Shown here: positions 1-18,327 of the stretch, one piece after another
Numbering within the stretch: position 1 is the first letter of the stretch
Layout of the letters: every line of letters begins with the position of its first letter
Assembly: GCA_025358295.1 (NCBI GenBank)
Contig: JANYJY010000073.1
Coordinates: forward strand, 1 to 61,481
Direction of reading: 5' to 3'
DNA from: Gammaproteobacteria bacterium
GTDB taxonomy: Bacteria; Pseudomonadota; Gammaproteobacteria; Steroidobacterales; Steroidobacteraceae
DNA length: 61,481 nt
The notes under the pieces: model-generated
Told to the model about the DNA's origin: nothing
The model's database searches: none
Seen by the model: the letters and a program-made list of their open reading frames with translations, nothing else
Translations under genes and position numbers: made by a program

Positions 1-1270
1 CGCATTCGAGCCGGCTTGCGTAGCGGGCAGCCTCCTCGGGATCGTTGCCCCACACCGAGCCGCCCAGGCCCACATCGAGTGAATTGGCGCGCTGAATGGC
101 CTCATCTACCGTGGCGTATTTCACAATGGGAATGACGGGACCGAATTGCTCTTCCTTGACGACGCGCATGTCATCTGACGCATTGGCGATAACCGTCAGC
201 GGATAAAAATATCCGGGCGCCTTCGGCCTCACGCCGCCCGTCACGATCGTTGCACCACTGGCGCGCGCATCATCGACGTACCCGGCGACCTTATCCAGCT
301 GCATCTTGTTCGACACAGGTCCGATGAGATTCTTTGGATCGAGTCCATTGCCGACCGGGATCTTGGCGACGTATTCGGAGAACTTCTTGACCACCTCGTC
401 ATACTGATCTTGGTGCACATACAGACGCTTCAGCGCGGCGCAGGTCTGCCCGGCATTGATGAAGCAGCCCCAGAACAGCTTTTCGAGCAGAGGCTCGATG
501 CGGGTGCCAGGCAGCACAATGCCGGCGTCATTGCCGCCGAGCTCCAGCGTAACGCGCTTCAAGTGCTGCGCAGCGCTGCCCATCACTTTCTTACCCGTGG
601 CGATGGATCCGGTAAATACGATTTTATCGACGCCCGGGTGATTGGTCAGATGATGGCCGATCTCGGCGGCACCGGTCACGATGTTGACAACGCCCGGCGG
701 CAGGACTTGATTCATGAGTTCCACCAGGCGCAGCGTTGAGAGCGGCGTGAAGGGCGAGGGCTTGACGACAACGGTGCAGCCCACGCGGAGCGCCGGCATG
801 ATGTGCCAGACCGCAATCATCATCGGCCAGTTCCACGGCGTAATCGAAGCGACGACGCCGACCGGCTTGCGGCGGATGACAATCTTCCCGCTCTTGTCGT
901 CCTGGATGGTCTCTTCGGGAAGGGAAAGGCCCGCCGTTACCCGGGTCCATGCCGCGCTGCCGCCGACTTCGAGATTCGCCCCCGGGCCGCTCTGCGTCTT
1001 GCCCTGCTCCCGAGTGATCAGCTCGGAAAGTTCCACATGGTGTTTTTCGATCAAGTCAGCGATCGCCAGCATTTTGGCCGAACGCTCCGCATCAGCGAGC
1101 GCCGCCCATGCCGCGAACGCGCCGCGCGCACAGGCGACCGCGTCATCCACCTGGGCGATGGTCGCCTCGGGACACGCCGCCAAGACGGATTCATCGGCGG
1201 GATTCAGCACATTGAAGGACTTCGCCGTCGTGACGGGCTTGCCGCCGATGGTCATGGTGTAGTTCGACAT
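1..1270 (-). CDS. Aldehyde dehydrogenase (C-terminus cut by window edge)
   Basis: NAD(P)-dependent aldehyde dehydrogenase that oxidises an aldehyde to its acid. About 423 residues are present; the C-terminal part lies outside the window. The ATG at 1270 is preceded by AGGAGA, located in the end of the upstream kinase gene. Visible family motifs are TPWNWP in the Rossmann domain, the glycine motif FTGSIATGKK, the general-base glutamate in TLELGGND and the catalytic cysteine, about residue 277, in NAGQTCAAL. It starts one base after the kinase stop, so it is the last visible gene of a six-gene operon. This supports a role in oxidising the aldehyde released by the kinase/phospholyase pair (inference). 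It resembles the second aldehyde dehydrogenase at 20.7 kb. Confidence 0.93.
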   Translation of the reverse strand, partial: MSNYTMTIGGKPVTTAKSFNVLNPADESVLAACPEATIAQVDDAVACARGAFAAWAALADAERSAKMLAIADLIEKHHVELSELITREQGKTQSGPGANLEVGGSAAWTRVTAGLSLPEETIQDDKSGKIVIRRKPVGVVASITPWNWPMMIAVWHIMPALRVGCTVVVKPSPFTPLSTLRLVELMNQVLPPGVVNIVTGAAEIGHHLTNHPGVDKIVFTGSIATGKKVMGSAAQHLKRVTLELGGNDAGIVLPGTRIEPLLEKLFWGCFINAGQTCAALKRLYVHQDQYDEVVKKFSEYVAKIPVGNGLDPKNLIGPVSNKMQLDKVAGYVDDARASGATIVTGGVRPKAPGYFYPLTVIANASDDMRVVKEEQFGPVIPIVKYATVDEAIQRANSLDVGLGGSVWGNDPEEAARYASRLEC

Positions 1271-1271
1271 A

Positions 1272-2306
1272 TCACGATTCTCCTGAAAAATGCTCTAAGT
1301 AGTCCTCAGCGACTGCGCAGGCGCGCTGCACCAGAAACGGACCCAGCTCGCGCGCCGTGTCGCTGCCCTGCCGCGTATGTACCCAGCCCAGATAGGTGGT
1401 GCCGCGTGCTGCCAGAAACAGCGGCAGCCTTGCCAGCGTTTCGTCGGACAGCCGGCGTTCACTGCGATAGCCACGGATCAGCGCATCACGGGCCGTGGGA
1501 TAAATGCTATCGCCGGAAATAAAGTAGAGCGACGTGGCGAGTTCGAATAGGTGCCAGCCGAAGCCGGCATCGTCGAAGTCGATCACTTGGACACGATGGC
1601 CGTCAATCAGCAGATTTTCCGGGACAAGGTCCCCGTGTATGAGCCCATAGCCGTCGGGCCCAGCGCCGTAGGCAGCCAGTTCCTGCGCAATCCGAGTGCG
1701 GGCTCGCAGCAAAAGGCTGCTCTGCTCCGGCGTGAGCGCAGCGAGCTCCCAAAACCGACCCCAGAACGGCGTTTCGCCCACCAATCCCTCCGCATCCCAG
1801 GCGTGACGCTGAAACCCGCTTGGGCGCTGCCAACCCGCGGCCTGATTGTGCATTCGAGCGGCGAGCGCGCCGATCGTATAATACTGCTTTGCAATGGCGG
1901 CGCCATCGCGGCCCACGCCATCTTCGACGGACCCTAACTGGCGTCCGTCGATCCATTCGAACACATCGATTTGCCGCGCATCGCCCGGCGTCTGAGTCGC
2001 TACGACTTCGAAGTTGCGGCCATGTCGCGAACGAATCACGCGCGGCACTTCGATACCGGCCGCCTGCAGAGCGCGCATCCAGACAAACTCCGAATCAAGC
2101 TCGGCGTCAGAATGGTAGCCACAGCGATGCACCCGCAACACGGCGCGACCGCCGCCGCTCAGATCGATTCTGAACACGGCATTTTCGCGCACCTTGATGG
2201 GTGCGAGATTCGACACCTCCAGATCCCAGTGGTGCAAGGCGCTGCGCGCGAGCGCCTGCATCTCGTCGAGGAAAGTTGCCGATTCGCATTTCAATTCCTC
2301 GTTCAC
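1272..2306 (-). CDS. APH/choline-kinase-fold amino-alcohol kinase
   Basis: 344-residue protein of the aminoglycoside phosphotransferase/choline kinase/hydroxylysine kinase superfamily, which transfers the ATP gamma-phosphate to a hydroxyl group. The Brenner-type motif HGDLVPEN lies at residues 224-231 and the metal-binding DFDD at 243-246. The start overlaps the stop of the upstream phospholyase gene in an ATGA, so the two are translationally coupled. Hydroxylysine kinase belongs to this family and works with a class III aminotransferase-like phospholyase. The pairing here therefore points to an amino-alcohol kinase rather than an antibiotic-resistance enzyme (inference). The substrate is not readable from the sequence. 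Confidence 0.85.
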   Translation of the reverse strand: MNEELKCESATFLDEMQALARSALHHWDLEVSNLAPIKVRENAVFRIDLSGGGRAVLRVHRCGYHSDAELDSEFVWMRALQAAGIEVPRVIRSRHGRNFEVVATQTPGDARQIDVFEWIDGRQLGSVEDGVGRDGAAIAKQYYTIGALAARMHNQAAGWQRPSGFQRHAWDAEGLVGETPFWGRFWELAALTPEQSSLLLRARTRIAQELAAYGAGPDGYGLIHGDLVPENLLIDGHRVQVIDFDDAGFGWHLFELATSLYFISGDSIYPTARDALIRGYRSERRLSDETLARLPLFLAARGTTYLGWVHTRQGSDTARELGPFLVQRACAVAEDYLEHFSGES

Positions 2307-3583
2307 AACGCCGCCAGCGCCTGGTTGAGCGTGTCGACGAGCAGGTCGGCATTTTGCTTCGAGAACGGCATCGGCGGCCGTATTTTAAGAATATTGTCGT
2401 GCATGCCGATACGGCTGATGAGCACGCCGCGATCGCGCATGAGATTGACGAGGCGCTTGGTTTGCGCCGTCGCGGGGGTCTTGGCGTGACGATCGAGGAC
2501 GAGTTCGACCGCGAAAAATAGGCCTGCCCCGCGCACGTCGCCGATGAGCGTATGCCGGTTCGCGAGTTCCTCGAGCCTCGCGAGGGTGTACTCACCGACA
2601 GTGACGGCATTTTGCAGCAGCTGCTCATCCTCGATCACGTCGAGAACCGCCATCCCGACGGCGGCCGACACCGGATTGCCACCGAAGGTGTTGAAGTACA
2701 TGTTGCGGCTGGTGAACGCGTTGACGAGTTCGCGGCGCGCCACCAAGCCGGCGAGCGGATGTCCATTGCCCATGGGTTTGCCCATGGTGACGATGTCGGG
2801 AACGACACCCAGTTTTTGGTGCCCCCACATGTGGCTGCCGAGACGGCCGAATCCAGCCTGCACCTCGTCGGCGATGAAGTACCCACCGGCGGCATGCACG
2901 TGGTCAAGCGTTTTTCCCATGAAGCCTGCCGGCAACGTCGGCAGACCTTCGCTGGAGAATGCCGTGCAAAACAGCAGACCGGCGAAACGCACGCCGCTCG
3001 CGGCGAACGAGTCGATCGCGCGTTTGACGTCATCCGCATAGACCAACGCAAGTTCCTCGTCGCTGCGCCCCGCTCGGTCGCGATAAGGGTCCATCACGGG
3101 CACCGAGCGCACGTGCGGGCCACGCTTGCTGGCGGGCGTGAACAGGGAGCTTATCTGCATCACGGCCGCCGTATTGCCATGATAGGCCCAGGCGGTCGAT
3201 ATGATTCCCTCGCCGCCGCTGCAATCGCGTGCGATGCGAAGCGCCAGCTCATTGGCCTCACTGCCGCTGCAAACGAACATGGCCATCGACAGCTGTGCAT
3301 CGAACAAACCCGTGAGCCGTTCGGCATAGGCCACTACATGTTCATCCAGGTAGCGCGTGTGGATATTGAGAGTGGCTGCCTGTCCGCTCAGCGCTGCCAC
3401 CACGCGTGGGTGACAATGACCCACGTGCGGTACGTTATTATAGGCGTCCAGATAACGACGCCCATCGGCGTCATACAGCCACACGCCCTCGCCGCGCACC
3501 AGGTGCAAGGGCTTATCGTAGAAAAGCGGCGAGTTGCGCCCTAGAACTCGATAACGCCGCTCGAGCAAAGATTCGGTATCCAC
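2303..3583 (-). CDS. Class III aminotransferase-fold PLP enzyme, probable amino-alcohol-phosphate phospholyase
   Basis: PLP-dependent fold-type I enzyme of 426 residues. The PLP lysine is Lys269 in TMGKPMGNGHPL, and the cofactor aspartate is in FIADEVQAGFGR. I chose the GTG at 3583, which has GGAG eight bases upstream, because the longer ORF runs deep into the SDR gene. Ethanolamine-phosphate and 5-phosphohydroxylysine phospholyases belong to this family and eliminate phosphate and ammonia to leave an aldehyde. Coupling to an APH-type kinase by a 4-base overlap favours that role over plain transamination. An ordinary omega-aminotransferase remains the alternative. Confidence 0.83.
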   Translation of the reverse strand: MDTESLLERRYRVLGRNSPLFYDKPLHLVRGEGVWLYDADGRRYLDAYNNVPHVGHCHPRVVAALSGQAATLNIHTRYLDEHVVAYAERLTGLFDAQLSMAMFVCSGSEANELALRIARDCSGGEGIISTAWAYHGNTAAVMQISSLFTPASKRGPHVRSVPVMDPYRDRAGRSDEELALVYADDVKRAIDSFAASGVRFAGLLFCTAFSSEGLPTLPAGFMGKTLDHVHAAGGYFIADEVQAGFGRLGSHMWGHQKLGVVPDIVTMGKPMGNGHPLAGLVARRELVNAFTSRNMYFNTFGGNPVSAAVGMAVLDVIEDEQLLQNAVTVGEYTLARLEELANRHTLIGDVRGAGLFFAVELVLDRHAKTPATAQTKRLVNLMRDRGVLISRIGMHDNILKIRPPMPFSKQNADLLVDTLNQALAAL

Positions 3584-3599
3584 CTGTGCAACTCCGGCG

Positions 3600-4394
3600 T
3601 CACTGACCTTGATAGAAGGACTCCAGGACCACCGGGCTCTCCGGCAAAGTAGAACCACCGTCGACGACGATGGTCTGTCCCGTGATGTACGACGCCGCGT
3701 CCGAGGCGAGAAACAACATGGTATTGGCGATGTCGACCGGATCCCCGAGCTTGCCGAGCGGGATTTGCTTAGCCATTTCCGCGAGCGCCTCCGGGCCGCC
3801 CAGCGCGTTCATCGCAGGCGTGAGTATGTAGCCGGGTTCGACACCGTTCACTGTGATGTTCTGCCGGGCATACTCGAGCGCCGCCGTACGGATCAAGCCG
3901 TTAAGGCCGCACTTCGATGCCGCATAGTGCGCGGTACCCGGCATGGCAACATTCGGTCCGGTGACGGACGAGGTAAACAAAAAGCGCCCGCCTCCTTGTT
4001 TGCGCAGGTGCGGGAGCGCCTCCTGGATAAACCAGAACCCGGCCTTGAGGTTTACCGACAGGGTGAGATCAAGGTCGGCATCCGACAGTTGCTCGATCGG
4101 CAGTACGGGATAGACGGCCGCGTTGTGCACCACGATGTCGAGCCGCCCGAATCGCTCCACCGTCTGCGCCACCACGCGCTTAACCTCGGCACGCCGGCCG
4201 ACATCGGTTTGGTTGAGCCAGGCGACGCCTCCAGACTTGACGATGGCGTCGGCGACTGACTGGCCATTCGCCTGGCTGCGTGTGGCGATGACCACCTTGG
4301 CGCCGGACTTTGCGAACACCCGCGCGATGCCTTCGCCGATGCCCTGGCCCGAACCGGTAACGATGGCAACTTTGTTCGATAAATCGACGATCAT
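3600..4394 (-). CDS. Short-chain dehydrogenase/reductase
   Basis: Classical SDR of 264 residues. It shows the cofactor motif TGSGQGIG (13-20), NAA (91-93), a catalytic serine in TSSVTG (142-143) and the YAASK motif (Tyr157, Lys161), followed by PGYILTP. The ATG at 4394 has AGGA at a suitable distance; the longer frame has no support. It lies between the permease and the phospholyase in the same operon, so it probably oxidises or reduces an alcohol or ketone in that pathway. The substrate is unknown. Confidence 0.9.
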   Translation of the reverse strand: MIVDLSNKVAIVTGSGQGIGEGIARVFAKSGAKVVIATRSQANGQSVADAIVKSGGVAWLNQTDVGRRAEVKRVVAQTVERFGRLDIVVHNAAVYPVLPIEQLSDADLDLTLSVNLKAGFWFIQEALPHLRKQGGGRFLFTSSVTGPNVAMPGTAHYAASKCGLNGLIRTAALEYARQNITVNGVEPGYILTPAMNALGGPEALAEMAKQIPLGKLGDPVDIANTMLFLASDAASYITGQTIVVDGGSTLPESPVVLESFYQGQ

Positions 4395-5754: not shown

Positions 5755-8036
5755 TACTTGCCCCAGTGGTACGCCACGCTGGCGCCGTATAGACGTGGCG
5801 TCCCATAGACCGACTGATTGATGCCAAGGAATCCTGAGAGATCGAGGTTATAAATCCGATACAGGGTGTTTAAGCAATTCTTACAATAGGCCGACACATC
5901 CCAGCGGCCGCTGGAATCGGTGTATCCGACCCGCGCATTGGTGAGCGTGTAGGACGGCTGCCGATCGACCGGGGCATTGATCAATTCCAAATACATTGCC
6001 TTATTCCACTTTGCATCGACTTCTGCCGACAACTTGCCGCCGAAGGCAGCCCACTCGTAGCGAGCGACCGCATTCACGCTCCAAGGCGGCGCCTGCGGCA
6101 ATTGCGCAGTCACGAGAATGCCCGCCGGCGTGGGCACATTCAGCGCCTGGGTGTCGAGGTAGGAGACGCCCAGTTGCACGTGCATGCCGTGGAACGGCAC
6201 CACCGCCAGTTCGAGCTCGCTGCCCTTCACCTTGGCGTCGATGTTTTCGACGATCTGCGTGGCGACGTCGAGGAAGAAGCCCTGATAATTCTTGTAATCG
6301 TAATAGAAGACATCGCCATTGAGCCGCGCCGCGCCATCCCAGAACGTCGATTTGAAGCCTGCCTCGTAGCTGGTCAATCGCTCCTCGTCATAGTTCATTT
6401 TCAACGTCGGGACGAAGCCATAGCCAGGATTCAAGTTGACATAGCCGGAACTGGGTGCCGACAAACCGCCGCCCTTGGCGCCTCGATTGACGCTGGCATA
6501 CAGCAAATTATCCTGGTCGATCTTGTAGTCGAGCTCCGCCTTTCCCATCGGCATTCGATAGGTTTTTTTCGCGTCTGGGTAACCGCTTGCGGTCGAATAG
6601 TTAAGACTGTAGGGGAAGCCTCCTGGGGGCGCGGTCGGATCCAGCGGCCCGCAGACATTACAGGTGTAATTGTATAAGTATTGTTTCTGGTCGATGGTAT
6701 AGCGCGCACCGACAATGCCCACCCAGTGATCGCTAAAGCTGTATTCGAGCTGGCCGAACACCGAGGGCGAACTGGTGCGCAAATTCAGATTCGCCAATCC
6801 ATTGCCATACGGGAACGGCACGGGAGGGATGTAGTCGGGCAGCGTCGTCTGCTCGAAATTCGTGGTCTTATAGTTGAGGTAGTAGGCACCGGCGATCCAA
6901 CGCAGGCTCTCGTATTTACCGTTGAGGCGGAATTCCTGCGAGAACTGCTGGTAGTGCGCCTCGGTATCGTAATTGAATATCGGGTTCGGCGAGACGTCCG
7001 AGTCCTCGCCGTAGCGCTTCTGCATCTTCAGATAGTCCGTCACCGATGCGAGCGAGAAGGCATCGAAATTCCAATTGACGCGAACATTCGCGCCCCACAC
7101 CGTGCGGTTGAACAACCCTCGGCGGTCCTCCGCCTGATTGAACGGACTGGAATTCGTGTTCACGTAGCCACCCAAATCCGGCGTGCCCGCAGGCGCAAAT
7201 ACGCCCCGGCCGGTTGCGTCGGGAAAAGAGGCCGCCCACGAATAATTACCGGAGGTCTCGTGATTATTGTTGAGGGCATGCAGCTTGATCAGAATTTCGC
7301 CGTTGTCGGTCGGCTTGATGCGCAATTGCAGCCGCAGCGCGTATTGATCTTGGTCATCGATCGCATGGCCGAGGCTGTTCGAGATATAGCCGTCATGGCG
7401 CGACACGTCAAAGGAGAGCCGCCCGGACACCTTGTCGGTCAACGGTCCGCTCACCGCCCCTTCCGATTCGAATGTGCCGAAATTGCCACCCGTCAGCTGT
7501 AGATAAGCTTCCGGCGTATCGGTCGGCAGCTTGCTCACATATTGAATCAGACCGCCCGTGGCATTTCGTCCGAACAAGGTGCCCTGGGGACCGCGCAGGA
7601 CTTCGACACGCTGCAGATCGAACAGGGAGCCGGCCAGCGCACCCGTCGAGCCGATATAGGCATCGTCCGCGTACACGGCGATGGGCGCTTCTTGGTGATC
7701 GCTGAAGTCGTTTTGGGATACGCCGCGCAGATTGTAGATGGTGACGGTCGCGCCATATTGGTTGTATTGCAAGCCGGGCACTTGGCCCGCGATATCGATG
7801 ACGTCCTTGAATCCGAGCTGCTCCAGCGCATGCGCGTCGAACGCGGTCACCGATGTTCCCACGTCCTGTAGGTTTTGCTCGCGCCTCTGGGCAGTGACTA
7901 CGATTTCGCCGAGCTTGTCCTCATCGCCCGACTCGGCCGCGAGGCCGGCCAGCCAAGGCCCCATAGTGAGGATCATTCCCGTGGCCGCATGCGCCACGCG
8001 AGTCCGAAGCGTCCGTCCCTTCATTTGACTTTGCAT
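5754..8036 (-). CDS. TonB-dependent outer-membrane receptor
   Basis: 760-residue outer-membrane transporter. A signal peptide occupies roughly the first 35 residues. A TonB-box-like GEIVVTAQRR follows, then the plug domain with VLRGPQGTLFGRNATGG near residue 150, and a long beta-barrel ending in an aromatic-rich strand. ATG at 8036 was taken; a second ATG four codons on (MKGRTL) is also possible. It heads the minus-strand operon, so it probably takes up the substrate of the kinase/phospholyase/dehydrogenase enzymes rather than iron (inference). Confidence 0.93.
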   Translation of the reverse strand: MQSQMKGRTLRTRVAHAATGMILTMGPWLAGLAAESGDEDKLGEIVVTAQRREQNLQDVGTSVTAFDAHALEQLGFKDVIDIAGQVPGLQYNQYGATVTIYNLRGVSQNDFSDHQEAPIAVYADDAYIGSTGALAGSLFDLQRVEVLRGPQGTLFGRNATGGLIQYVSKLPTDTPEAYLQLTGGNFGTFESEGAVSGPLTDKVSGRLSFDVSRHDGYISNSLGHAIDDQDQYALRLQLRIKPTDNGEILIKLHALNNNHETSGNYSWAASFPDATGRGVFAPAGTPDLGGYVNTNSSPFNQAEDRRGLFNRTVWGANVRVNWNFDAFSLASVTDYLKMQKRYGEDSDVSPNPIFNYDTEAHYQQFSQEFRLNGKYESLRWIAGAYYLNYKTTNFEQTTLPDYIPPVPFPYGNGLANLNLRTSSPSVFGQLEYSFSDHWVGIVGARYTIDQKQYLYNYTCNVCGPLDPTAPPGGFPYSLNYSTASGYPDAKKTYRMPMGKAELDYKIDQDNLLYASVNRGAKGGGLSAPSSGYVNLNPGYGFVPTLKMNYDEERLTSYEAGFKSTFWDGAARLNGDVFYYDYKNYQGFFLDVATQIVENIDAKVKGSELELAVVPFHGMHVQLGVSYLDTQALNVPTPAGILVTAQLPQAPPWSVNAVARYEWAAFGGKLSAEVDAKWNKAMYLELINAPVDRQPSYTLTNARVGYTDSSGRWDVSAYCKNCLNTLYRIYNLDLSGFLGINQSVYGTPRLYGASVAYHWGK

Positions 8037-8220
8037 CGTATCCCCTGCGTATCGAGTCGTGGTGATGGCGTTCCGGTCATACTAGTCCCTGGGACAACGG
8101 CAACGCGACCCAGGAAACGAAGGCACCGTACGGGATCGGAAAATAGTTCCAAGCCGAACGCTCGGTGTTAAGTTTTCCTGTAGGCTCGCGCGTCAACGAC
8201 CTCCCTTCGGCACGGCATAT
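8037..8220. promoter_or_regulatory. Divergent intergenic region between two catabolic operons
   Basis: This 184-base region separates the TonB-receptor operon (minus) from the CoA ligase-thiolase gene (plus), so it must hold both promoters. A short palindrome TCCCTGGGA is visible in it. I could not identify convincing -35/-10 pairs, and there is no clear Shine-Dalgarno sequence before the ATG at 8221. Confidence 0.45.
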
Positions 8221-11019
8221 ATGGCGGCGAACCCCAGCAGTCACTCGATCTCTGCAGTCTTCGAGAACACCGCGGCGATGTTCTCGGGGCGCGACTTCCT
8301 GCATATCCCCGCCGAGGCCTGCCGAGATTATGCCGACGGCCCGATCACCCTGACCTACAGCGAGGCTGCCACTCGCGTCGACGCGCTGGCGTCTCAACTA
8401 CGGGCCGCCGGCTACGGACCTGGCCACAGGGTGGCCCTCGCACTCGACAACAGGCCGGAGTTCTTTCTGTATTTCCTGGCTTTGGCCAGGGTGGAGGTCA
8501 GTGTCGTACCGCTCAATGCGGGCATGAGCGTCGCCGAATTGGCCTATGTGGTCGGCCACTCGGACGTGGTCCTGGTTGTGACGCATCAAGGCCATGCGGC
8601 TCACATCCTTGCTGCAGTGCCCTCCTCGACCTCCCTTCATGTCCTCAGCCCATCCGAAGCAGCGCTGCCGCGAGCGGCTGGATCGCGCATCGCGGAACCG
8701 GGCGAGGCGGCGCTCCTCTATACATCCGGAACGACCGGAACTCCTAAGGGCTGCATCCTTGCCCAGCAGTACTTTCTTGAAGTCGGCCGCCTGTATACCG
8801 AGCTCGGCGGCTACTGTCGTTTCGATCGCACTGCTGACCGGCTTGCCACGCCGCTTCCCGTCACGCACATGAATGCTCTCGCGGTGTCCTTCATGGCCAT
8901 GCTCATGACGGGAGGTTGCCTCATCCAGCTCGACCGCTTTCATCCATCGACTTGGTGGCGCTCGATTCGAGCCAGCCGGGCCACCGCGTTTCACTATCTC
9001 GGCGTCATGCCGGCAATGTTGTTGAACGCGCCCGCAGCGGCTGACGACAATGTGGCAGCGCAGGTGCGTTTCGCCTTCGGCGCAGGCGTGGATCCGCGTC
9101 ATCAGGCCGCATTCGAGGCGCGCTTCGGTGTGCCCTTGATCGAAGCCTGGGCCATGACGGAGACCGGCGCAGGCGCCTGGATAACGGCGAACCACGAGCC
9201 GCGTCATGTGGGGCAACGCTGCTTCGGTAAACCGCCGGCAGACTTGGCGTATCGCATCGTCGACGACGGCGGGAGCGATGTGGCCGCGGGAACCGCGGGA
9301 GAATTGCTGGTAAGGCGGTCGGGGGATGATCCTCGCCGGGGATTCTTTGCCGGCTACTACAAAGACGAGCTGGCGACGTCGCAGGCCTGGTCCGGCGGTT
9401 GGTTTCATACCGGCGATCTGGTGCGGGCGGGTGAAGACCAGTCCTTCTACTTCGTGGACCGCTCTAAGAATGTCATCCGTCGCAGCGGCGAGAACATTGC
9501 GGCCGTCGAAGTGGAAAGCGCGCTACAGACAGAGCCCTTGGTGCTGGCCTCAGCCGCTTGTCCCGTCGCGGATGATGTGCGCGGCGAGGAGGTGTTTGCA
9601 TTCGTCGTCTTGCGCCCGGGAATCTCTCCGTCTTTGGATACCGCCGTCCGGCTGCAGGCTCACTGCCTGCAGCAATTGGCCTACTACAAGGCACCCGCCT
9701 ACGTTGCATTCTGCACCGAGCTACCGCAAACCGCATCGCAAAAACTGGCGCGCGCGCAGATCAGATCGCTCGCCGCCGGCGCCATCCGTTCGGCGCAGGC
9801 TTTCGATCTGCGTTACTCGAAGAGACGCGCTGTTCGCGAGCCCGTGCGCAGCGCCATCAGGGACTACGACGATGTCGTGTTGGCCGCACCCGTCACAGTG
9901 CCTTATGCGCGCTACTCGGTACACAGCGCCCACTGGTTCGTCGCTCAAACGCTGGCGCAGCTCATCAAAGTGTCCGGCCTGCACAAAGTCGACATCGACG
10001 GACTGAGTGTGGGCAGCTTTACGCTGGCGCCGGACACCGCCATCGGGCTTACCCAACATCTGGGGGTGACGGTACGATGGCTCGACTATGTACCGCTCGG
10101 CGGCGCCTGCGGCATCGTCAGCATGCGTCACGCGCTGCGTGCGGTGCAGGCAGGTGATGCCGAGGTCGTTGCCTGCATCGGCGCCGACACCAATCACGTC
10201 GATTCTTTCCGGCAAAGTCTTGGCAATTTCAGCGTATTCGCGCGCGACGCCGTGTTCCCCTACGGATCCGGCGGTCCCAATGCCAGCTTCGCTTTTCTGA
10301 CCTCGCACTACATGCGCACTTACGGCGCCACCCGTGAGGATTTCGGCAAGCTCTGCCTGGCGCAGCGCGACAACGCACTCGGCTATCCATTCGCCATGTT
10401 CAAAAGGAAATTGACCCTGGAGGAATATCTCTCGGCACGGCTTATTGCGGATCCGATTCGGCTGTTCGATTGCGTGATGCCCTGCGCCGGCGCCGAGGGC
10501 TTCTTGGTCATGCGGCGCCAACGCGCCGTGGAGTTGGGGCTACCTTATGTGCGAGTGCGCTCCACCTGCGAGCGGCACAATGCCTATCCGGAAGATCCGA
10601 TCCAAAGCCGGGGCGGCTGGATTCTGGACCGAGAACATCTCTATGGTGCGGCAGGAGTCGAACCCGCCGATATCGACTTCGTCCAGACGTACGACGATTA
10701 TCCGGTGATGTCGGTCATTCAGCTCGAGGATCTCGGTTTCTGCGCCAAGGGCGAGGGACCGGATTTCATTCGCCGTCATTCCTTCACCACGGCGGGTTCT
10801 TTTCCCCTCAACACCAGCGGCGGCCAGCTCTCAGTCGGACAAGCAGGCTGTGCGGCTGGTTTTTTGGGACTGATCGAGTCCATAAGGCAGCTCACGGGGC
10901 GCAATTTGGCGCTTCCCGTTCCCGATGCGCGCTTCGGCATCGCCGTAGGCTTCGGCATGATCACCTACGACCGAGGATTGAGCTCGGGGGCCGCCATCCT
11001 CAGCCGGGCGGACGCATGA
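8221..11019 (+). CDS. Acyl-CoA ligase fused to a thiolase-like (Ltp/SCP-x type) domain
   Basis: 932-residue two-domain protein. Residues 1 to about 530 form an ANL-superfamily ligase: P-loop LLYTSGTTGTPKG (about 165-177), MTETGAG (about 311), hinge GWFHTGDL (about 394-401) and the C-terminal catalytic lysine region TASQKLAR (about 505). Residues from about 545 form a thiolase-fold domain of the lipid-transfer-protein type: a cysteine in GGACG (residue 630), the strand YDDYPVMSV and NTSGGQLSVGQAG (from residue 864), where classical thiolases have GHP. It should activate an acid to its CoA ester and carry out a C-C bond reaction on CoA esters. It overlaps the next gene in an ATGA; that gene supplies the DUF35 partner usual for this thiolase type. 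Confidence 0.9.
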   Translation: MAANPSSHSISAVFENTAAMFSGRDFLHIPAEACRDYADGPITLTYSEAATRVDALASQLRAAGYGPGHRVALALDNRPEFFLYFLALARVEVSVVPLNAGMSVAELAYVVGHSDVVLVVTHQGHAAHILAAVPSSTSLHVLSPSEAALPRAAGSRIAEPGEAALLYTSGTTGTPKGCILAQQYFLEVGRLYTELGGYCRFDRTADRLATPLPVTHMNALAVSFMAMLMTGGCLIQLDRFHPSTWWRSIRASRATAFHYLGVMPAMLLNAPAAADDNVAAQVRFAFGAGVDPRHQAAFEARFGVPLIEAWAMTETGAGAWITANHEPRHVGQRCFGKPPADLAYRIVDDGGSDVAAGTAGELLVRRSGDDPRRGFFAGYYKDELATSQAWSGGWFHTGDLVRAGEDQSFYFVDRSKNVIRRSGENIAAVEVESALQTEPLVLASAACPVADDVRGEEVFAFVVLRPGISPSLDTAVRLQAHCLQQLAYYKAPAYVAFCTELPQTASQKLARAQIRSLAAGAIRSAQAFDLRYSKRRAVREPVRSAIRDYDDVVLAAPVTVPYARYSVHSAHWFVAQTLAQLIKVSGLHKVDIDGLSVGSFTLAPDTAIGLTQHLGVTVRWLDYVPLGGACGIVSMRHALRAVQAGDAEVVACIGADTNHVDSFRQSLGNFSVFARDAVFPYGSGGPNASFAFLTSHYMRTYGATREDFGKLCLAQRDNALGYPFAMFKRKLTLEEYLSARLIADPIRLFDCVMPCAGAEGFLVMRRQRAVELGLPYVRVRSTCERHNAYPEDPIQSRGGWILDREHLYGAAGVEPADIDFVQTYDDYPVMSVIQLEDLGFCAKGEGPDFIRRHSFTTAGSFPLNTSGGQLSVGQAGCAAGFLGLIESIRQLTGRNLALPVPDARFGIAVGFGMITYDRGLSSGAAILSRADA

Positions 11020-12203
11020 TTCCGCCTTCGGCAAGATCACGCGCAGCACTTGGCTTAACGGCGTCGGCCGCGCTCGGCCGTTTCGAATTGCAGATCTGCA
11101 GTGCCTGTGCTGCCGTTCAATATCCCGCGCGTGAAACCTGCCATCGGTGTCTCTCCGGTTCGCTACACTGGCGTGAACAACCGGGCACGGGCGAGCTGAT
11201 CGCCGACACAATCGTGCGTCACAGCAACGACATGTATTTCCAGGAGCGCCTTCCCTGGCGACTCGGCTTGGTTAGACTGGATGCGGGGCCGACCGCCGTC
11301 GTGCATCTGCATGGAGGCTGTGCCCCTGCTCCCAGCCGCGTGCGCGTTGCCGCCAGGCTCGACAAATCCGGCCACGGTGTTCTTTTAGCCTTTCCCATTG
11401 ACGAGGTGCCGAACATGGCAGATGACCGCCAACTGCGTGAAATGACTTGCGATCCGCAGCGTCGAAGAGTGCTGGTGACCGACGGCAAAACGGCGGTGGG
11501 CCAAGCCGTGGTGCACGCCTTGATCGCTGCCGGCGCCGACCTTGTATGGGTAGGTTATGCCGAACCGTGGAAGGAATCTGCGGAGTTCGCAGCGCTTGGC
11601 GCATTGTCGCGGGCTGCGCTGCTGCCACTCGACCTGACCAACGCTCAATCAGTCAAGAAAGTCGCCGCTGAAATCGGTGGCGACGTGGACATCCTGATCA
11701 ATACCGCGGAAGTACATCGCGCCTGCGGGATTGCCTCACCGAGCGGAGATGAGGCCGCCCGTTCGGAAATGGATGTCAATTACTTCGGACTGCTGCGGCT
11801 CGCCCAAGAGTTCGCTCCGGCCATGCGGTATCGAGGCGCCGACGGCGAATCGAGCGCCACAGCCTGGGTCAACTTGCTGTCGGTGTATGCGCTCAGCAAC
11901 TTCCCCGCTCACGGGACCTACTCGGCTTCGAAGGCAGCTGCTTTGTCTCTGGCGCAATGTCTGCGGGCCGAGATGCGCAGCGCCGGTGTACGGGTGATCA
12001 ATATATTTCCTGGACCTATCGAGGACGAGTGGAATCAGATGTTGCCGCCGCCAAAAATGACTCCGGCCGCTTTGGCCAGAGCCGTGGTCAAAGCGCTCCA
12101 AGACGGCGTTGAGGACGTGTATCCGGGCGACGTCGCGCAGGAGTGGTTCACACGTTGGCGCGAGAACCCCAAGGTCCTCGAAAAGGAATTAAGCGCTGGA
12201 TGA
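11016..12203 (+). CDS. DUF35 zinc-ribbon/OB-fold domain fused to an SDR
   Basis: 395-residue fusion. The N-terminal part has a four-cysteine zinc ribbon (Cys28, Cys31, Cys42, Cys45) and an OB-fold, as in the DUF35 partners of thiolase-like enzymes (BbsA, ChsH2). From about residue 150 there is an SDR with the TYSASK active-site motif and a FPGP loop, but its glycine motif is TDGKTAVG, weaker than the canonical TGxxxGIG. The ATG overlaps the preceding stop by four bases; longer frames start inside the thiolase. The gene set thiolase + DUF35 + SDR matches the enzymes that finish beta-oxidation of benzylsuccinate, here in two fusions. The actual substrate is unknown. Confidence 0.87.
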   Translation: MIPPSARSRAALGLTASAALGRFELQICSACAAVQYPARETCHRCLSGSLHWREQPGTGELIADTIVRHSNDMYFQERLPWRLGLVRLDAGPTAVVHLHGGCAPAPSRVRVAARLDKSGHGVLLAFPIDEVPNMADDRQLREMTCDPQRRRVLVTDGKTAVGQAVVHALIAAGADLVWVGYAEPWKESAEFAALGALSRAALLPLDLTNAQSVKKVAAEIGGDVDILINTAEVHRACGIASPSGDEAARSEMDVNYFGLLRLAQEFAPAMRYRGADGESSATAWVNLLSVYALSNFPAHGTYSASKAAALSLAQCLRAEMRSAGVRVINIFPGPIEDEWNQMLPPPKMTPAALARAVVKALQDGVEDVYPGDVAQEWFTRWRENPKVLEKELSAG

Positions 12204-13374: not shown

Positions 13375-14517
13375 ATGCGACTCCTAGTCAACGCTCTTTT
13401 GCTATGCACCTCGCTGGCCGGGTCTGCCTTTGCAGATCTGCCGTCGGATACCGAACACGGCTCTCAGGTGGCGACTCTGCAGGTTCCGCCCCCGAAACAC
13501 TGGGTATGGGTCAATGATTTTGTGTTTCCGCACATGGCTGACGGGATGGCCTATTTGATCGACGGGGATTCAGGCCGTTACCTGGGAACCCTCAGCACGG
13601 GCTACGGCTTTGCCCGCGTGGTTCTTCCCCGCGACGGCAAGCTCATCTATTCGCCGGAAACCTACTTCTCGCGTGGCACCCGCGGCAAGCGCACGGATGT
13701 CGTCACCGTCTACGATGCCGGCACTCTGAAGCCCTTGGGCGAAATTCCCATCCCGGCCAAGCGTTCGTCCAACATGCCGATGATGTCCAATTCCGTAATG
13801 ACGGACGACGAGCGCTTTCTGCTGATCTATAACTTCAATCCGGCACAGAGCGTCACCGTGGTCGACATCAAGACGCGCAAGTTCGTTCGGGAAATCGAAA
13901 CGCCCGGATGTGCATTGGTCTATCCAACGGGGCCGCGGTCGTTCTTTTCGGTGTGCGGCGACGGCTCCTTATTGCTTGCCGACGTCGACGACAGCGGCGC
14001 CGCGCACCAGAAGCGCACCAAGCCGGTGTTCGATATGTCTGCCGATCCGGTGACCGAGAAGGCCGTACGTATCGGTGACACTTGGTATTTCGTGTCGTTC
14101 GCCGGACGCATTTATCCGCTCAAGGCCGATGCGCATGAGGCAACCGTGGGAGCGAGTTGGTGGCTGACGTCCGACGCCGAGCGCAAAGCCGGTTGGCGGC
14201 CCGGCGGCATTCAGCAATTGGCCGTGAATGCGCAAAAATCGCGTCTGTACTCGATCATGCATCGCGGCGGAGTTGAGACGCACAAGGATCCGGGTAAAGA
14301 CGTTTGGGTCTACGATGTGTCGACTCATCAGCGAGTGCAGCAATTCAGCTTGAAAAATCTGGCTACGTCGATTCAATTATCGCCCGACGAGCAGCCTTTG
14401 ATGTACAGCATCTTCATCGACGGTACGGATCTCGACATCTATGACGCGGCCAGCGGCAAGCTGCTGCGATCGGTCGCTCATGTCGGCACGACGCCGACCA
14501 TCATGGTTACTCCCTAG
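13375..14517 (+). CDS. aauB: Aromatic amine dehydrogenase large (beta-propeller) subunit
   Basis: 380-residue periplasmic propeller subunit of a TTQ-dependent amine dehydrogenase. A Sec signal peptide ends near residue 20 (GSAFA). Segments such as TRGKRTDVVTVYDA, PRSFFSVCGDGSLL and the WxPGG turn match, from memory, the large subunit of Alcaligenes aromatic amine dehydrogenase. It is the first gene of a B-E-D-A operon. The enzyme deaminates a primary amine to aldehyde and ammonia in the periplasm; the large subunit scaffolds the catalytic small subunit. Confidence 0.92.
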   Translation: MRLLVNALLLCTSLAGSAFADLPSDTEHGSQVATLQVPPPKHWVWVNDFVFPHMADGMAYLIDGDSGRYLGTLSTGYGFARVVLPRDGKLIYSPETYFSRGTRGKRTDVVTVYDAGTLKPLGEIPIPAKRSSNMPMMSNSVMTDDERFLLIYNFNPAQSVTVVDIKTRKFVREIETPGCALVYPTGPRSFFSVCGDGSLLLADVDDSGAAHQKRTKPVFDMSADPVTEKAVRIGDTWYFVSFAGRIYPLKADAHEATVGASWWLTSDAERKAGWRPGGIQQLAVNAQKSRLYSIMHRGGVETHKDPGKDVWVYDVSTHQRVQQFSLKNLATSIQLSPDEQPLMYSIFIDGTDLDIYDAASGKLLRSVAHVGTTPTIMVTP

Positions 14518-14527
14518 AAGCGCTACC

Positions 14528-15070
14528 GTGCTCGACCCCGCCATCGGATACTTGATCATTGCCGGCAGCGCGCTTTTATTCGTGAGTGCGGCCGCACATA
14601 AATTACGCGACCTGGCGCGGTTCACCGAAATATTCGCGGCGTACAATGTGTTGCCCGATGCGCTGTCGCGGCGACTGGCATGGAGTATTCCCTGTGTGGA
14701 GCTGGGCGTCGGCGCTGCCCTGCTGTGGCCGGCGGGCCGCAACACGGCGGTTCCCGCAGCGATGGCCGTACTGATTGCTTACGCGGCAGGCATCGGCATC
14801 AATCTACTGCGCGGCCGGGTCGATCTGGATTGCGGCTGCGGTGCTGCCCGCGATCGACGGGGCATTGCCGCTTGGATGGTATGGCGTAACCTGATGCTCG
14901 CTGCCGCCCTTGGCCTCGCGCTCTTGCCCTGGTCGACCCGCTCATTGAAATTGACCGATGTGCTGACGCTCGTCGGGGGGCTGTTGGTCGGGGTCATTTT
15001 GTACGCCTCACTGGACCGCCTGCTGGGTGACGTTGCCCGCAAGGGTCTGCTGCTGAGGAGCACGTCGTGA
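14528..15070 (+). CDS. mauE: MauE-type membrane protein for amine dehydrogenase maturation
   Basis: 180-residue integral membrane protein with about four to five hydrophobic helices, a DoxX-like fold and a DLDCGCG segment. MauE is required with MauD for processing and disulfide formation of the small subunit. I chose the GTG at 14528, ten bases after the aauB stop; a longer frame would overlap aauB by 77 bases. It overlaps mauD in a GTGA. Confidence 0.88.
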   Translation: MLDPAIGYLIIAGSALLFVSAAAHKLRDLARFTEIFAAYNVLPDALSRRLAWSIPCVELGVGAALLWPAGRNTAVPAAMAVLIAYAAGIGINLLRGRVDLDCGCGAARDRRGIAAWMVWRNLMLAAALGLALLPWSTRSLKLTDVLTLVGGLLVGVILYASLDRLLGDVARKGLLLRSTS

Positions 15071-15675
15071 CGGCGCTGGCCATTTCCAATGTCGTGCTTT
15101 GGTTGGTGGTCATCGCCTTGTCCGTCGCATTGTTGGCCGTCATCCGTCAGCTGGGCGTGTTGCATGAGCGCATTGCGCCGGTCGGCGCACTGATGCTGGC
15201 CAAGGGACTTAAAGTGGGCGAACTCGCCCCGACGATTGCCGCTGAGGATCTGGACGGCCGTGCCATCACGGTGGGAGCCGTGCGCAGCGACGGGCGCGCC
15301 ACCTTGGTCGTATTCGTGTCACCGACCTGCCCCGTATGCAAGACCTTGCTACCGGCCTTGAAATCGAGCCTGGCAGCGGAGCGAGACTGGCTCGACATCA
15401 TTCTCGCCAGCGACGGCGAGGCCGGCAGTCAGCGGGATTTCGTGACTGCGCAGCGTTTGAATGCCTTCCCCTACATTGTTTCCGCGCCGCTGGGCATTTC
15501 GTACCAGGTGAGCAGGCTGCCGTTTGCGGTGCTGATCGATGCGGAAGGCGTGCTAAGAGCACGCGGAATCGTGAACTCTCGGGAACACCTGGAAAGTCTA
15601 TTCGAGGCCAAACGCTTGGGTTTCGCATCGATTCAGGATTATTTTGAAGCGGCGATGCAGAATCAGGCGGCTTGA
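15067..15675 (+). CDS. mauD: MauD-type thioredoxin-fold disulfide protein
   Basis: 202-residue protein with one N-terminal membrane anchor (about residues 5-25) and a periplasmic thioredoxin-like domain carrying the redox motif CPVC (about residues 89-92). MauD helps form or isomerise the disulfides of the small subunit, which here has many cysteines. The GTG start overlaps the mauE stop by four bases, so the two are coupled. Confidence 0.9.
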   Translation: MTALAISNVVLWLVVIALSVALLAVIRQLGVLHERIAPVGALMLAKGLKVGELAPTIAAEDLDGRAITVGAVRSDGRATLVVFVSPTCPVCKTLLPALKSSLAAERDWLDIILASDGEAGSQRDFVTAQRLNAFPYIVSAPLGISYQVSRLPFAVLIDAEGVLRARGIVNSREHLESLFEAKRLGFASIQDYFEAAMQNQAA

Positions 15676-15702
15676 GCATTCGCGGGCTCAGCGAGGATTA
15701 CT

Positions 15703-16227
15703 ATGAAATGGTTGGATGCATTCTCGGAAAAATCAGCCCGCACGCTGGCGCGGCGCACGTCGCGGCGCAGCGTACTGGCGGGCCTCGGATCACTGATCTT
15801 GGGCGCAACGACGGTGCCGTTGCTGCCGGTCGCGCGCGGTGCCGACACTAAACCTGCGGGCGGTGCGCCGAAGGCGGATCCGGGCGATCCTAATTCGTGC
15901 GATTACTGGCGGCACTGTGCCATCGATGGTTTCTTGTGCGGCTGTTGCGGTGGCTCGCAGTCAACCTGCCCGCCGGGCACCGATATGTCTCCGGTCACCT
16001 GGATCGGCACCTGCCACAATCCCAGCGACGGCAAGGACTATGTGATCTCCTATAACGATTGCTGCGGCAAAAGCTCCTGTGGGCGCTGCTTCTGTAACCG
16101 TAACGAAGGCGATACGGCGCTGTTTCAACCCGGTCAATCCAACGACTACAACTGGTGCTCCGGAAATGCAAAGGCGAATATTCCCTATCATTGTTCGACG
16201 GCGCGCATCGTAGGCACTGCCAAGTAG
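15703..16227 (+). CDS. aauA: Aromatic amine dehydrogenase small subunit (TTQ)
   Basis: 174-residue catalytic subunit. It has a long twin-arginine-type leader (RRTSRRSVLAG) and a mature part with over a dozen cysteines. The two tryptophans that form tryptophan tryptophylquinone are Trp100 (VTWIGTC) and Trp151 (YNWC), 51 residues apart exactly as in known enzymes (57 and 108 in methylamine dehydrogenase). The core CDYWRHCAIDGFLC and WIGTCHNPSDGKDY read much closer to aromatic amine dehydrogenase than to methylamine dehydrogenase (compared from memory). A GAGGA ribosome binding site precedes the ATG. TTQ formation normally needs further factors; no mauG is visible nearby. Confidence 0.95.
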   Translation: MKWLDAFSEKSARTLARRTSRRSVLAGLGSLILGATTVPLLPVARGADTKPAGGAPKADPGDPNSCDYWRHCAIDGFLCGCCGGSQSTCPPGTDMSPVTWIGTCHNPSDGKDYVISYNDCCGKSSCGRCFCNRNEGDTALFQPGQSNDYNWCSGNAKANIPYHCSTARIVGTAK

Positions 16228-16233
16228 TCGCCC

Positions 16234-16659
16234 GTGCGAATCCTATTCCGGGTCACCGCCACGATGCTTGCCTTGGCGGGGGCAAGCGCTGCCTGGGGCT
16301 ATGAGCCGGCGGTTAATTACCAGATTCGCTGCATGGGGTGTCATCTTGCCGACGGCTCCGGAACACCCGGGCGAATCCCGTCGGTGCGACGCTCGCTGGT
16401 GCTTTTTTCAGCGGTCCCGGAGGGACGAGACTACGTCGTCCGGGTGCCGGGCGTCGCGCAATCGCCGCTCTCCGATGCAGACACCGCCGCCTTGCTCAAT
16501 TGGATGGCAAGGAATCTCAGTGACGTCAAGGTTCCGGCGAACTACGTCGACTACTCGGAAGCAGAAGTTCACGGCTTGCGCGATCGTCCCTTGGCACAGG
16601 TCAAGGCCATTCGCGCGCGCTTGTGGAAGTCAGTCGGCGGCGCGGCGCCAACGCCTTAG
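16234..16659 (+). CDS. Small c-type cytochrome, probable electron acceptor of the amine dehydrogenase
   Basis: 141-residue secreted protein with a GTG start six bases after aauA. A signal peptide ends around residue 22 and a single haem-binding motif CMGCH follows shortly after. A methionine ligand is not obvious; Met170 does not exist in so short a chain, and WMARN is the best candidate. Its place directly after the small subunit matches my memory of the Alcaligenes aau cluster, where a monohaem cytochrome gene follows aauA. It probably accepts electrons from TTQ in place of amicyanin or azurin (inference). Confidence 0.82.
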   Translation: MRILFRVTATMLALAGASAAWGYEPAVNYQIRCMGCHLADGSGTPGRIPSVRRSLVLFSAVPEGRDYVVRVPGVAQSPLSDADTAALLNWMARNLSDVKVPANYVDYSEAEVHGLRDRPLAQVKAIRARLWKSVGGAAPTP

Positions 16660-16692: not shown

Positions 16693-18327
16693 ATGAGATT
16701 CTCCCCTAGGTTTCCCAACAAAGTTCCGGTGGTGATCGCCGGCGGCGGGCCGGTGGGCATGTCGCTCGCGGCGCTGTTGGCCCACTATGACGTTCCCTGC
16801 CTGGTGTTGGAGGCCGATCCATCCTGGTGCGAGGGCAGCAGGGCGATTTGCCTGTCGCGACGTTCACAGGAAATTCTCGGCTGGGTTGGCGCGGATCGGG
16901 CGCTGACCGCCAAAGGATTGTCCTGGGTTGGCGGCCGCAGTTATTTTCGCGATACCGAGGTGCTGCATTTCCAGATGCCCTCTGAGCCCACGCAACGCTT
17001 CGCGCCCATGATCAATATCCAACAGTACTACGTAGAACAGTATGCGCATGAGGCGGCCTTGCGTGCAGGTGGAGTCGATATGCGCTGGTCGGCACGCGTC
17101 GATGCGGTGCGGGCGTGCGCTTCCGCCGTGGACATAGAAGTCCAAACAGCGGATGGACAACTACACAGTATTCAGGCCGAGTGGCTCATCGCCTGCGACG
17201 GCGGCCGCAGCACGGTGCGCGAGCAATTGGGCTTGCAGCTCGAGGGCATGCAATACGAGGGCCGCTACGTCATCGTTGATATCGAGCAGGACACACGCCG
17301 CGAGGTGGAGCGCCTAGCTTGGTTCGATCCGCCCTCCAATCCGGGTTCCACCATCCTCATGCATCGTCAGCCCGACAATATCTGGCGCATCGACTATCAA
17401 GTCTCCGATCAAGAAGATCCGGCTGAGGCCGTCAAGCCAGAGAACGTACTGCCCCGCATACAAGCGCACCTCGACATGATAGGGGAGACGGCGCCGTGGA
17501 AACCCTTGTGGATATCGATCTACAACGCCAAATGCCTGACCCTGCCGAGCTATAGAAGAGGCCGCGTCCTGTTTGCCGGCGACGCGGCGCATCTGGTGCC
17601 GATATTCGGCGTGCGGGGGCTCAACTCCGGGCTGGACGACGCCGGCAATCTGGCTTGGAAACTTGCCATGGTACACAAGCGTCAAGCCGATGAGGCCCTG
17701 CTGGACAGCTATTCCCATGAGCGCGTTCTCGCGGCGCGTGAAAACATCGCCTATGGCGCCAAGAGCACCGAATTTATGGCGCCGCCGCATCACGGATTTG
17801 CGCTGATGCGCGAAGCGGCGCTGCGCGTCGCCATGGTGTCGCCCGGAATTCGTTCGCTCATCAATCCGAGGCAGACTTCTCCGGTCGAATACGTGGACTC
17901 GTCGCTCAATGCACCCGAGGGCGGAACTGAATTCGGCGGCGACGCGCGTGCCGGCATGCCGGCCCCGGAAGCGAAACTCAGCACCCATCGAGGCGCAGGA
18001 CACCTGACGCAGTACTTTGGCCACAGCTTCGTGGCCCTGTACTTCTCCGACGACGCGACTTTGCCGCAGTATTTACTGACGCTCGCGAACACGGGGCCGC
18101 CGGGCGTCGCGGCACTACGGCTTGTGCGGATCGCAACCCGCGGAGCTGCCGGCGAGGCTACCGTCATTGATGATGTCGGTCAGGCCTGGCAGCGCTATGA
18201 CGCGACGCACGGCAGCCTGTATTTGATCCGGCCGGACGGTTACGTCATGGGCCGATGGCGCAATGCTGAATCGAACCCTGCCCATCTCCGTGACGCGCTC
18301 AGCCACGCTCGAGGACTCAAGCCATGA
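16693..18327 (+). CDS. FAD-dependent aromatic monooxygenase (PheA/MhpA type)
   Basis: 544-residue group A flavin monooxygenase. It has the FAD dinucleotide motif GGGPVGM near the N-terminus, the DG motif CDGGRSTVR and the second FAD motif GRVLFAGDAAHLVPIFGVRGLNSG, followed by a degraded thioredoxin-like C-terminal domain. Such enzymes hydroxylate phenols or hydroxyphenyl acids with NAD(P)H and O2. It lies 33 bases after the cytochrome gene and overlaps a 59-residue ORF, so it is probably co-transcribed with the amine dehydrogenase. That suggests a hydroxyaromatic intermediate. Confidence 0.9.
   Translation: MRFSPRFPNKVPVVIAGGGPVGMSLAALLAHYDVPCLVLEADPSWCEGSRAICLSRRSQEILGWVGADRALTAKGLSWVGGRSYFRDTEVLHFQMPSEPTQRFAPMINIQQYYVEQYAHEAALRAGGVDMRWSARVDAVRACASAVDIEVQTADGQLHSIQAEWLIACDGGRSTVREQLGLQLEGMQYEGRYVIVDIEQDTRREVERLAWFDPPSNPGSTILMHRQPDNIWRIDYQVSDQEDPAEAVKPENVLPRIQAHLDMIGETAPWKPLWISIYNAKCLTLPSYRRGRVLFAGDAAHLVPIFGVRGLNSGLDDAGNLAWKLAMVHKRQADEALLDSYSHERVLAARENIAYGAKSTEFMAPPHHGFALMREAALRVAMVSPGIRSLINPRQTSPVEYVDSSLNAPEGGTEFGGDARAGMPAPEAKLSTHRGAGHLTQYFGHSFVALYFSDDATLPQYLLTLANTGPPGVAALRLVRIATRGAAGEATVIDDVGQAWQRYDATHGSLYLIRPDGYVMGRWRNAESNPAHLRDALSHARGLKP

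Follow-up and report, generated by a model that had tools for sequence, protein, structure and literature searches.

Two overlapping genes of a gammaproteobacterium (GTDB family Steroidobacteraceae; assembly GCA_025358295.1) are, judged by their sequences, iadF fused to iadG, and the adjoining iadH, of the iad locus for degradation of indole-3-acetic acid (IAA, auxin). They lie at positions 8221-12203, forward strand, of contig JANYJY010000073.1, whose 61,481 nucleotides are the window analysed here. The identity of the genes, their synteny, their residues and their predicted folds are what the analysis shows, and from these we infer a substrate, a reaction, a complex and channelling: the fused IadF-IadG and IadH probably work as the ligase and DUF35-assisted retro-aldolase of the IAA locus, with the short-chain dehydrogenase/reductase (SDR) half of IadH as a structural part.

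The first gene is an open reading frame of 932 amino acids (8221..11019, + strand) without internal stops. Its product matches the Pfam domains AMP-binding at residues 36-367 (6.1e-61), AMP-binding_C at 430-508 (1.4e-13) and Thiolase_C_1 at 808-916 (5.3e-29). The second gene (11016-12203, + strand) encodes 395 amino acids. Its listed open reading frame starts at 10470 with a TTG, but the ATG at 11016 is where similarity to homologues sets in, and the start was therefore set there; the two genes thus overlap by four bases, ATGA, at 11016-11019. The second protein matches zf-ChsH2 (residues 18-50), OB_ChsH2_C (52-110) and adh_short (151-340). An original prediction from the sequence had described a CoA ligase-thiolase and a DUF35-SDR protein in overlapping genes, and the reading frames and Pfam domains confirm this, with the corrected second start. 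The ligase half keeps the adenylation motif YTSGTTG and an A10-type Lys that is present in all 30 IadF rows, the window's included. The parts of the gene pair are as follows.

8221..9840, + strand: IadF half, an acyl-CoA ligase (AMP-forming), fusion residues 1-540; Pfam, YTSGTTG, and PQTASQK with the A10-type Lys
9835..9861, + strand: fusion junction, within stop-free forward frames at 9700-10000; in-frame GTG at 9844
9844..11019, + strand: IadG half, a thiolase fold and predicted DUF35-dependent retro-aldolase; YDDY, GQAG and Gly at the thiolase Cys column
10690..10701, + strand: YDDY motif, residues 283-286 numbered from 9844; aligned to YDCY of Sal and YDHF of Ltp2, invariant in 48/48 rows
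11016..11441, + strand: DUF35 half of IadH, a zinc ribbon (Cys28, 31, 42, 45) and OB fold; Pfam and alignment
11442..12203, + strand: SDR half of IadH, fold retained, TGxxxGxG lost (TDGKTAVG), Tyr302 present; alignment and model

The iad pathway for auxin degradation has already been published (PMC9613470, PMC10374108, PMC12633357), and the roles of IadC-J are taken from the same three sources, of which PMC12633357 is a preprint. For Variovorax, the intermediates and the requirement for iadF, iadG and iadH have been reported by others. The same IadF, IadG and IadH genes make up part of the locus of Variovorax paradoxus CL014/CL14. Two annotated relatives, Roseibium aggregatum and Ruegeria pomeroyi DSS-3, have the order IadC-D-E-F-G-H-I-J, with neighbours annotated as PDR/VanB reductase, Rieske alpha and beta subunits, ligase, thiolase-like protein, DUF35-SDR, cyclase and SDR. 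In Variovorax sp. N23, Rieske alpha, beta, ligase, IadG, DUF35-SDR, cyclase and SDR stand in a row. Parts of this order are found again in further loci, whose genes were called with a codon-usage caller and whose families were assigned with Pfam: a cyclase in 48 loci, Rieske alpha in 22 and the last SDR in 20, many loci being cut by contig ends. One such cyclase (L022) has isatin hydrolases as its best match (1.6e-111). At the window locus IadF, IadG and IadH are adjacent and in order, the first two being fused.

Other members of the locus lie on two further contigs of this genome. The end of contig C54 carries IadD (86% to G021), IadE (78% to G021) and IadJ (63% to L101), and it shares an exact overlap of 141 bases with positions 1-141 of the window. 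This overlap is an assembler break within an aldehyde dehydrogenase gene. The IadD matches the solved Variovorax IadD (7yls/8h2t) at 1.4e-180 and the best biphenyl dioxygenase at 2.2e-41, and nine of nine IAA-pocket residues given in PMC10374108 are identical in it, with the same numbers and in a gap-free part of the alignment. IadI is on contig C21; its best matches are isatin hydrolases (6.6e-101), and it is about 60% identical to the IadI of iad loci. The locus differs from that of Variovorax in the fusion of IadF and IadG, in the separate IadI, and in having two divergent arms that flank a kinase/lyase/permease/TonB block.

The IadG half has lost the hallmarks of a thiolase. In an alignment of 48 IadG rows, with one record represented twice, Gly occupies the column of the nucleophilic Cys, GHP has become GQA (Gln for His) and HDAF has become YDDY, each in 48/48 rows, so that neither the Cys nor the GHP His is present in any row. 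A further alignment, of 40 rows and with Roseibium and Ruegeria added, likewise shows these columns to be invariant. Cys89 of the window's IadG sits two columns away from the thiolase Cys column, at a place where 30/48 rows have Ser. IadG has the features of DUF35-dependent retro-aldolases, namely the Tyr of YDxx and no thiolase Cys. It has Asp and Gln, respectively, in place of the second catalytic residue of Sal (Cys304) or Ltp2 (Tyr344), and is filed as neither, but as a possible third variant beside them.

Among solved proteins, phmmer ranks Sal (2.9e-44) above Ltp2 (6e-39) and a thiolase (2.8e-35). An AlphaFold2 model of IadG (pLDDT 86.1) finds the Sal aldolase 9myr first (E 1.9e-31, TM 0.85), a Pyrococcus thiolase second and Ltp2 third. 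The low-confidence loop of the model, residues 127-143, falls at roughly the position of a loop described as partly disordered in Sal (PMC12329534).

Sal, which works with the DUF35 protein Shy on bile acids, is a characterized DUF35-bound aldolase with YDCY, a Gln where Ltp2 has Tyr344 and a Gly in place of the thiolase Cys (PMC12329534). As the closest match of IadG in both fold and sequence, it shares with IadG the Tyr base, the Gln and the Gly; IadH resembles Shy in that a DUF35 partner is joined to another enzyme domain. The two systems differ in YDDY versus YDCY, in an SDR rather than a MaoC hydratase as partner domain, in four zinc Cys in IadH versus Cys3His1 in Shy, and in a predicted oxindole versus a steroid substrate. 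Ltp2-ChsH2 (6ok1) is also a DUF35-bound thiolase-fold retro-aldolase, as is proposed for IadG, but Ltp2 has YDHF plus Tyr344, and its DUF35 is part of a hydratase subunit. Ltp2 acts on a CoA ester that carries a tertiary alcohol, as IadG would. BbsAB of toluene degradation likewise pairs a thiolase fold with a zinc-finger subunit. In contrast to IadG, however, BbsB keeps Cys, HDAF and GHP in the alignment and is described as a thiolase, and BbsAB is not one fused chain. The homology to 9myr and 6ok1 makes it plausible that IadG forms a complex with the DUF35 half of IadH.

The expected substrate, dioxindole-3-acetyl-CoA, is a tertiary beta-hydroxy ester. Its beta-carbon is not oxidizable, which rules out thiolysis. 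Residues, fold match and a substrate open to retro-aldol cleavage but closed to thiolysis together suggest that IadG is a retro-aldolase yielding isatin and acetyl-CoA, and not a thiolase. The pathway would start with IadCDE and IadJ, which convert IAA to dioxindole-3-acetic acid, as published for Variovorax. The IadF half would add CoA to give dioxindole-3-acetyl-CoA, and the IadG half, in complex with the DUF35 half of IadH, would cut off the two-carbon side chain by retro-aldol cleavage. The Tyr of YDDY is predicted to take the proton of the tertiary 3-OH, whereupon the C-C bond would break to leave isatin, and an acid would protonate the acetyl-CoA enolate; the Asp of YDDY is a candidate for this acid, a guess from its position. 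Isatin would then pass to IadI, the isatin hydrolase, with the SDR half of IadH serving mainly as structure. The two polypeptides may form a ligase-aldolase machine in which the fusion tethers ligase to aldolase, and the CoA ester is perhaps handed on directly. The original prediction had called for acid activation, a DUF35/thiolase-like pair and, as one option, an aldolase, and these fit well with what was found. Its order of ligase, dehydrogenase and thiolase is unsupported, because a tertiary beta-hydroxy acid cannot be oxidized to a 3-keto ester and because the cofactor motif of the SDR is gone.

The DUF35-SDR architecture is the usual form of IadH. A scan of genome contigs with the IadH protein gave 110 loci, of which the best 80 were kept. 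DUF35 and SDR are both matched in one frame at 43 of these (L019-L061; L053 is cut by a contig end), and the other 37 have the SDR half only, with at most a short stretch ahead of it. Among plasmids, 35/231 records cover at least 80% of the IadH protein. The architecture is thus common, as it is carried by 43 of the best 80 loci and by 35/231 plasmid records, and the original view that both fusions are unusual holds for the ligase-thiolase protein, which no other examined genome was found to carry, but not for DUF35-SDR. The locus of Variovorax sp. YR216 (L063), an SDR fragment only, was excluded from the counts; the fragment (8001-8546) stands alone, none of the other iad proteins searched being matched within 16.5 kb. 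An iad locus in a metagenome-assembled genome (MAG) titled Klebsiella pneumoniae (L021) lies near that of a betaproteobacterial MAG (L020) in the IadH tree, and the label may be wrong.

The zinc site of IadH is conserved, with each of the four DUF35 Cys present in every row that covers it (52 or 53 of 55). The SDR half has lost its cofactor motif. TGxxxGxG, the motif of active classical SDRs, is absent from IadH: the first Gly (position 156) is Asp in 54/55 rows and Asn in 1/55, the second is kept in 2/55 and the third in 52/55. IadJ served as a control from the same loci, where TGxxxGxG and YxxxK each occur in 16/17 IadJ proteins and TGxxxGxG in 0/49 IadH proteins. At the Tyr302 column there are 33 Phe, 19 Tyr and three other residues (n=55; Tyr lost in 36/55), with at least 15 changes on a quick tree in which two long branches meet. 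The rest of the tetrad is better kept (Asn255 in 51/55, Ser289 in 53/55, Lys306 in 47/55), and the window has all four of N-S-Y-K. In Variovorax sp. N23 (L024), IadH shows TD at the motif and Phe at the Tyr site. The Ruegeria pomeroyi IadH (L128, 8938-10173) has lost Ser, Tyr and Lys alike from its SDR site, yet IadG there retains YDDY; this is a long branch and its alignment is less sure. The model of IadH (pLDDT 88.5) has the SDR fold. BbsCD dehydrogenase of toluene degradation is comparable, as its SDR subunits include inactive pseudoenzymes according to the title of reference 26 in PMC10818641. On its residues the SDR half of IadH is probably not a dehydrogenase. The more likely reading is that it is mainly structural; the main rival to this is an isatin reductase whose cofactor site is unusual.

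Several points weigh against the reading of IadFGH as ligase and retro-aldolase with a structural SDR. The preprint calls the IadFGH step reductive, with IadG a ketothiolase and IadH an alcohol dehydrogenase, and reports that Variovorax without IadI accumulates C8H7NO2, the formula of dioxindole (PMC12633357). Ser289 and Lys306 are largely retained in the SDR half, as is Tyr302 in the window. Of the solved SDRs the closest is 5u4s, described as an NADP complex even though Leu stands where the Tyr would be, so that loss of the Tyr is by itself no proof of inactivity. A thiolase, 7yvy, outranks Ltp2 in the fold match of IadG, and no experimental precedent for Asp replacing the Cys or His was found in the literature searched.

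On the published account IadF activates the acid, IadG is a ketothiolase and IadH a working dehydrogenase, and the acetyl group is removed reductively to give dioxindole. The metabolites of knock-out and expression strains (PMC12633357) and the retained Ser and Lys favour this, and yet it appears distinctly improbable, given Gly at the thiolase Cys column and GQA for GHP in 48/48 rows and the missing first Gly of the cofactor motif in 55/55. Deletion of iadH takes out DUF35 as well, and therefore the effects of its two halves are inseparable; isatin made by an aldolase could, moreover, be reduced by other enzymes. The papers found assign the C-C cleavage from annotation, as the preprint itself says (section 5), and the main text of the preprint contains no word beginning with 'thiolase' and no 'DUF35' (PMC12633357). 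A real but minor possibility is that IadG is the retro-aldolase and the SDR half an active isatin reductase, of unusual cofactor site, that turns isatin into dioxindole. The dioxindole formula seen without IadI (PMC12633357) and the NADP complex of 5u4s would agree with this, and the fusion of DUF35 to SDR would couple product to reductase. Against it, 5u4s retains TGxxxGxG, unlike IadH, and the Ruegeria pomeroyi form has lost Ser, Tyr and Lys while its IadG has YDDY. That the locus acts on an aryl-acetic acid other than IAA might be argued from the kinase, lyase, permease and TonB receptor between its arms and from an amine dehydrogenase cluster, all outside the nine-gene set of Variovorax; the best match of IadD, its nine pocket residues and the isatin-hydrolase-like IadI make this very improbable.

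Among the genomes examined, this one alone has the ligase-thiolase fusion. Adjacent ligase and thiolase genes are fused in 0/26 relatives, and two further relatives have the genes apart. In one relative (L054) the ligase frame continues downstream, but out of the thiolase frame. A search for IadG in 396 genomes of the order (cut-off 1e-120) gave 34 positives, including the window's genome. The open frame at IadG is 977 codons in the window versus 390-493 in the other genomes of the order, apart from one of 755 codons (G369) that has one TGA in the match and is too short for a fusion. At 1e-100, and again counting the window's genome, IadG is found in 4/369 genomes of the class and 8/398 of the phylum. 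The one long frame in these two sets belongs to a second candidate, G1165 (937 amino acids), which was rejected because the added frame does not continue that of the ligase. When the junction was used as query, 19/217 genomes of the family gave a match, and the whole query is covered without a stop only in the window; in G069 the match spans residues 2-180 with one TGA inside. A natural near-fusion is seen in L121 (7352-10219), where ligase and thiolase-like genes share one frame with a single TGA between them.

It may be asked whether the fusion arose from an error in sequencing or assembly, or whether two chains are made by way of the internal GTG at 9844. Its uniqueness among the genomes examined, the 141-base contig overlap, which suggests a short-read assembly, and the single TGA in L121 all speak for such doubts, and a start at the GTG would give the thiolase-fold chain an N-terminus of about the usual length. 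On the other hand, no stop codon occurs at 9700-10000 in any of the forward frames, and with a one-base indel the ligase would run on for 58 or 108 codons before a stop, an extension unlike the relatives compared. One base error masking a stop codon would still be compatible with the open frame. An artefact or a pair of separate chains is considered unlikely.

Features next to the gene pair are these.

2..1270, - strand: aldehyde dehydrogenase truncated at the contig end, with the C-terminal part on C54 beside IadD, IadE and IadJ; 141-base overlap with C54
1272..5754, - strand: phosphotransferase-type kinase, class-III aminotransferase-type lyase, SDR and amino-acid permease between the iad arms; order matches L099
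12220..13278, - strand: AraC-family regulator; 50% identity (321 residues) to a gene within the iad locus of L124

The SDR at 3603-4391 was considered as IadJ and rejected, at 32.5% versus 63% for the gene on C54. A carnitine/butyrobetaine pathway was also considered, and was dropped because the neighbours turned out to be a Rieske oxygenase and an isatin hydrolase. The APH-family kinase and the class-III aminotransferase-type lyase (1272-3658, - strand), together with an aldehyde dehydrogenase, accompany iad genes in the window and also at L099 and L124; perhaps they turn a hydroxy-amine into an aldehyde by phosphorylation and elimination. Behind the AraC gene, at 13375-16656, is a cluster of the methylamine/aromatic-amine dehydrogenase type (heavy chain, MauE, MauD-like protein and light chain, followed by a small protein that has a single CxxCH). 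It could convert tryptamine to indole-3-acetaldehyde and so feed the iad pathway. Downstream of this cluster, at 16693-18324, lies an FAD aromatic-ring hydroxylase (PRK08132 subfamily, above cut-off).

The pathway itself is known. To it are added a ligase-thiolase fusion, met in this genome alone among those examined, and two probable enzyme-class misassignments unaddressed in the literature searched; neither an aldolase in the iad pathway nor a ligase-thiolase fusion is among the matches listed in the open-licence literature. A wider proposal is put forward tentatively, at slightly under even chances: that IadG is a third type of DUF35-dependent retro-aldolase (YDDY) with a DUF35-pseudo-dehydrogenase as partner, that the labels ketothiolase and alcohol dehydrogenase are wrong, and that the covalent ligase-aldolase needs no release of the CoA ester. 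The residues point IadG to another enzyme class. If true, this would remove a chemical inconsistency, the thiolysis of a tertiary alcohol, from the iad pathway, and would explain why iadH is required although its dehydrogenase half looks dead. It would also add a new active-site solution to a small and recently described class of aldolases.

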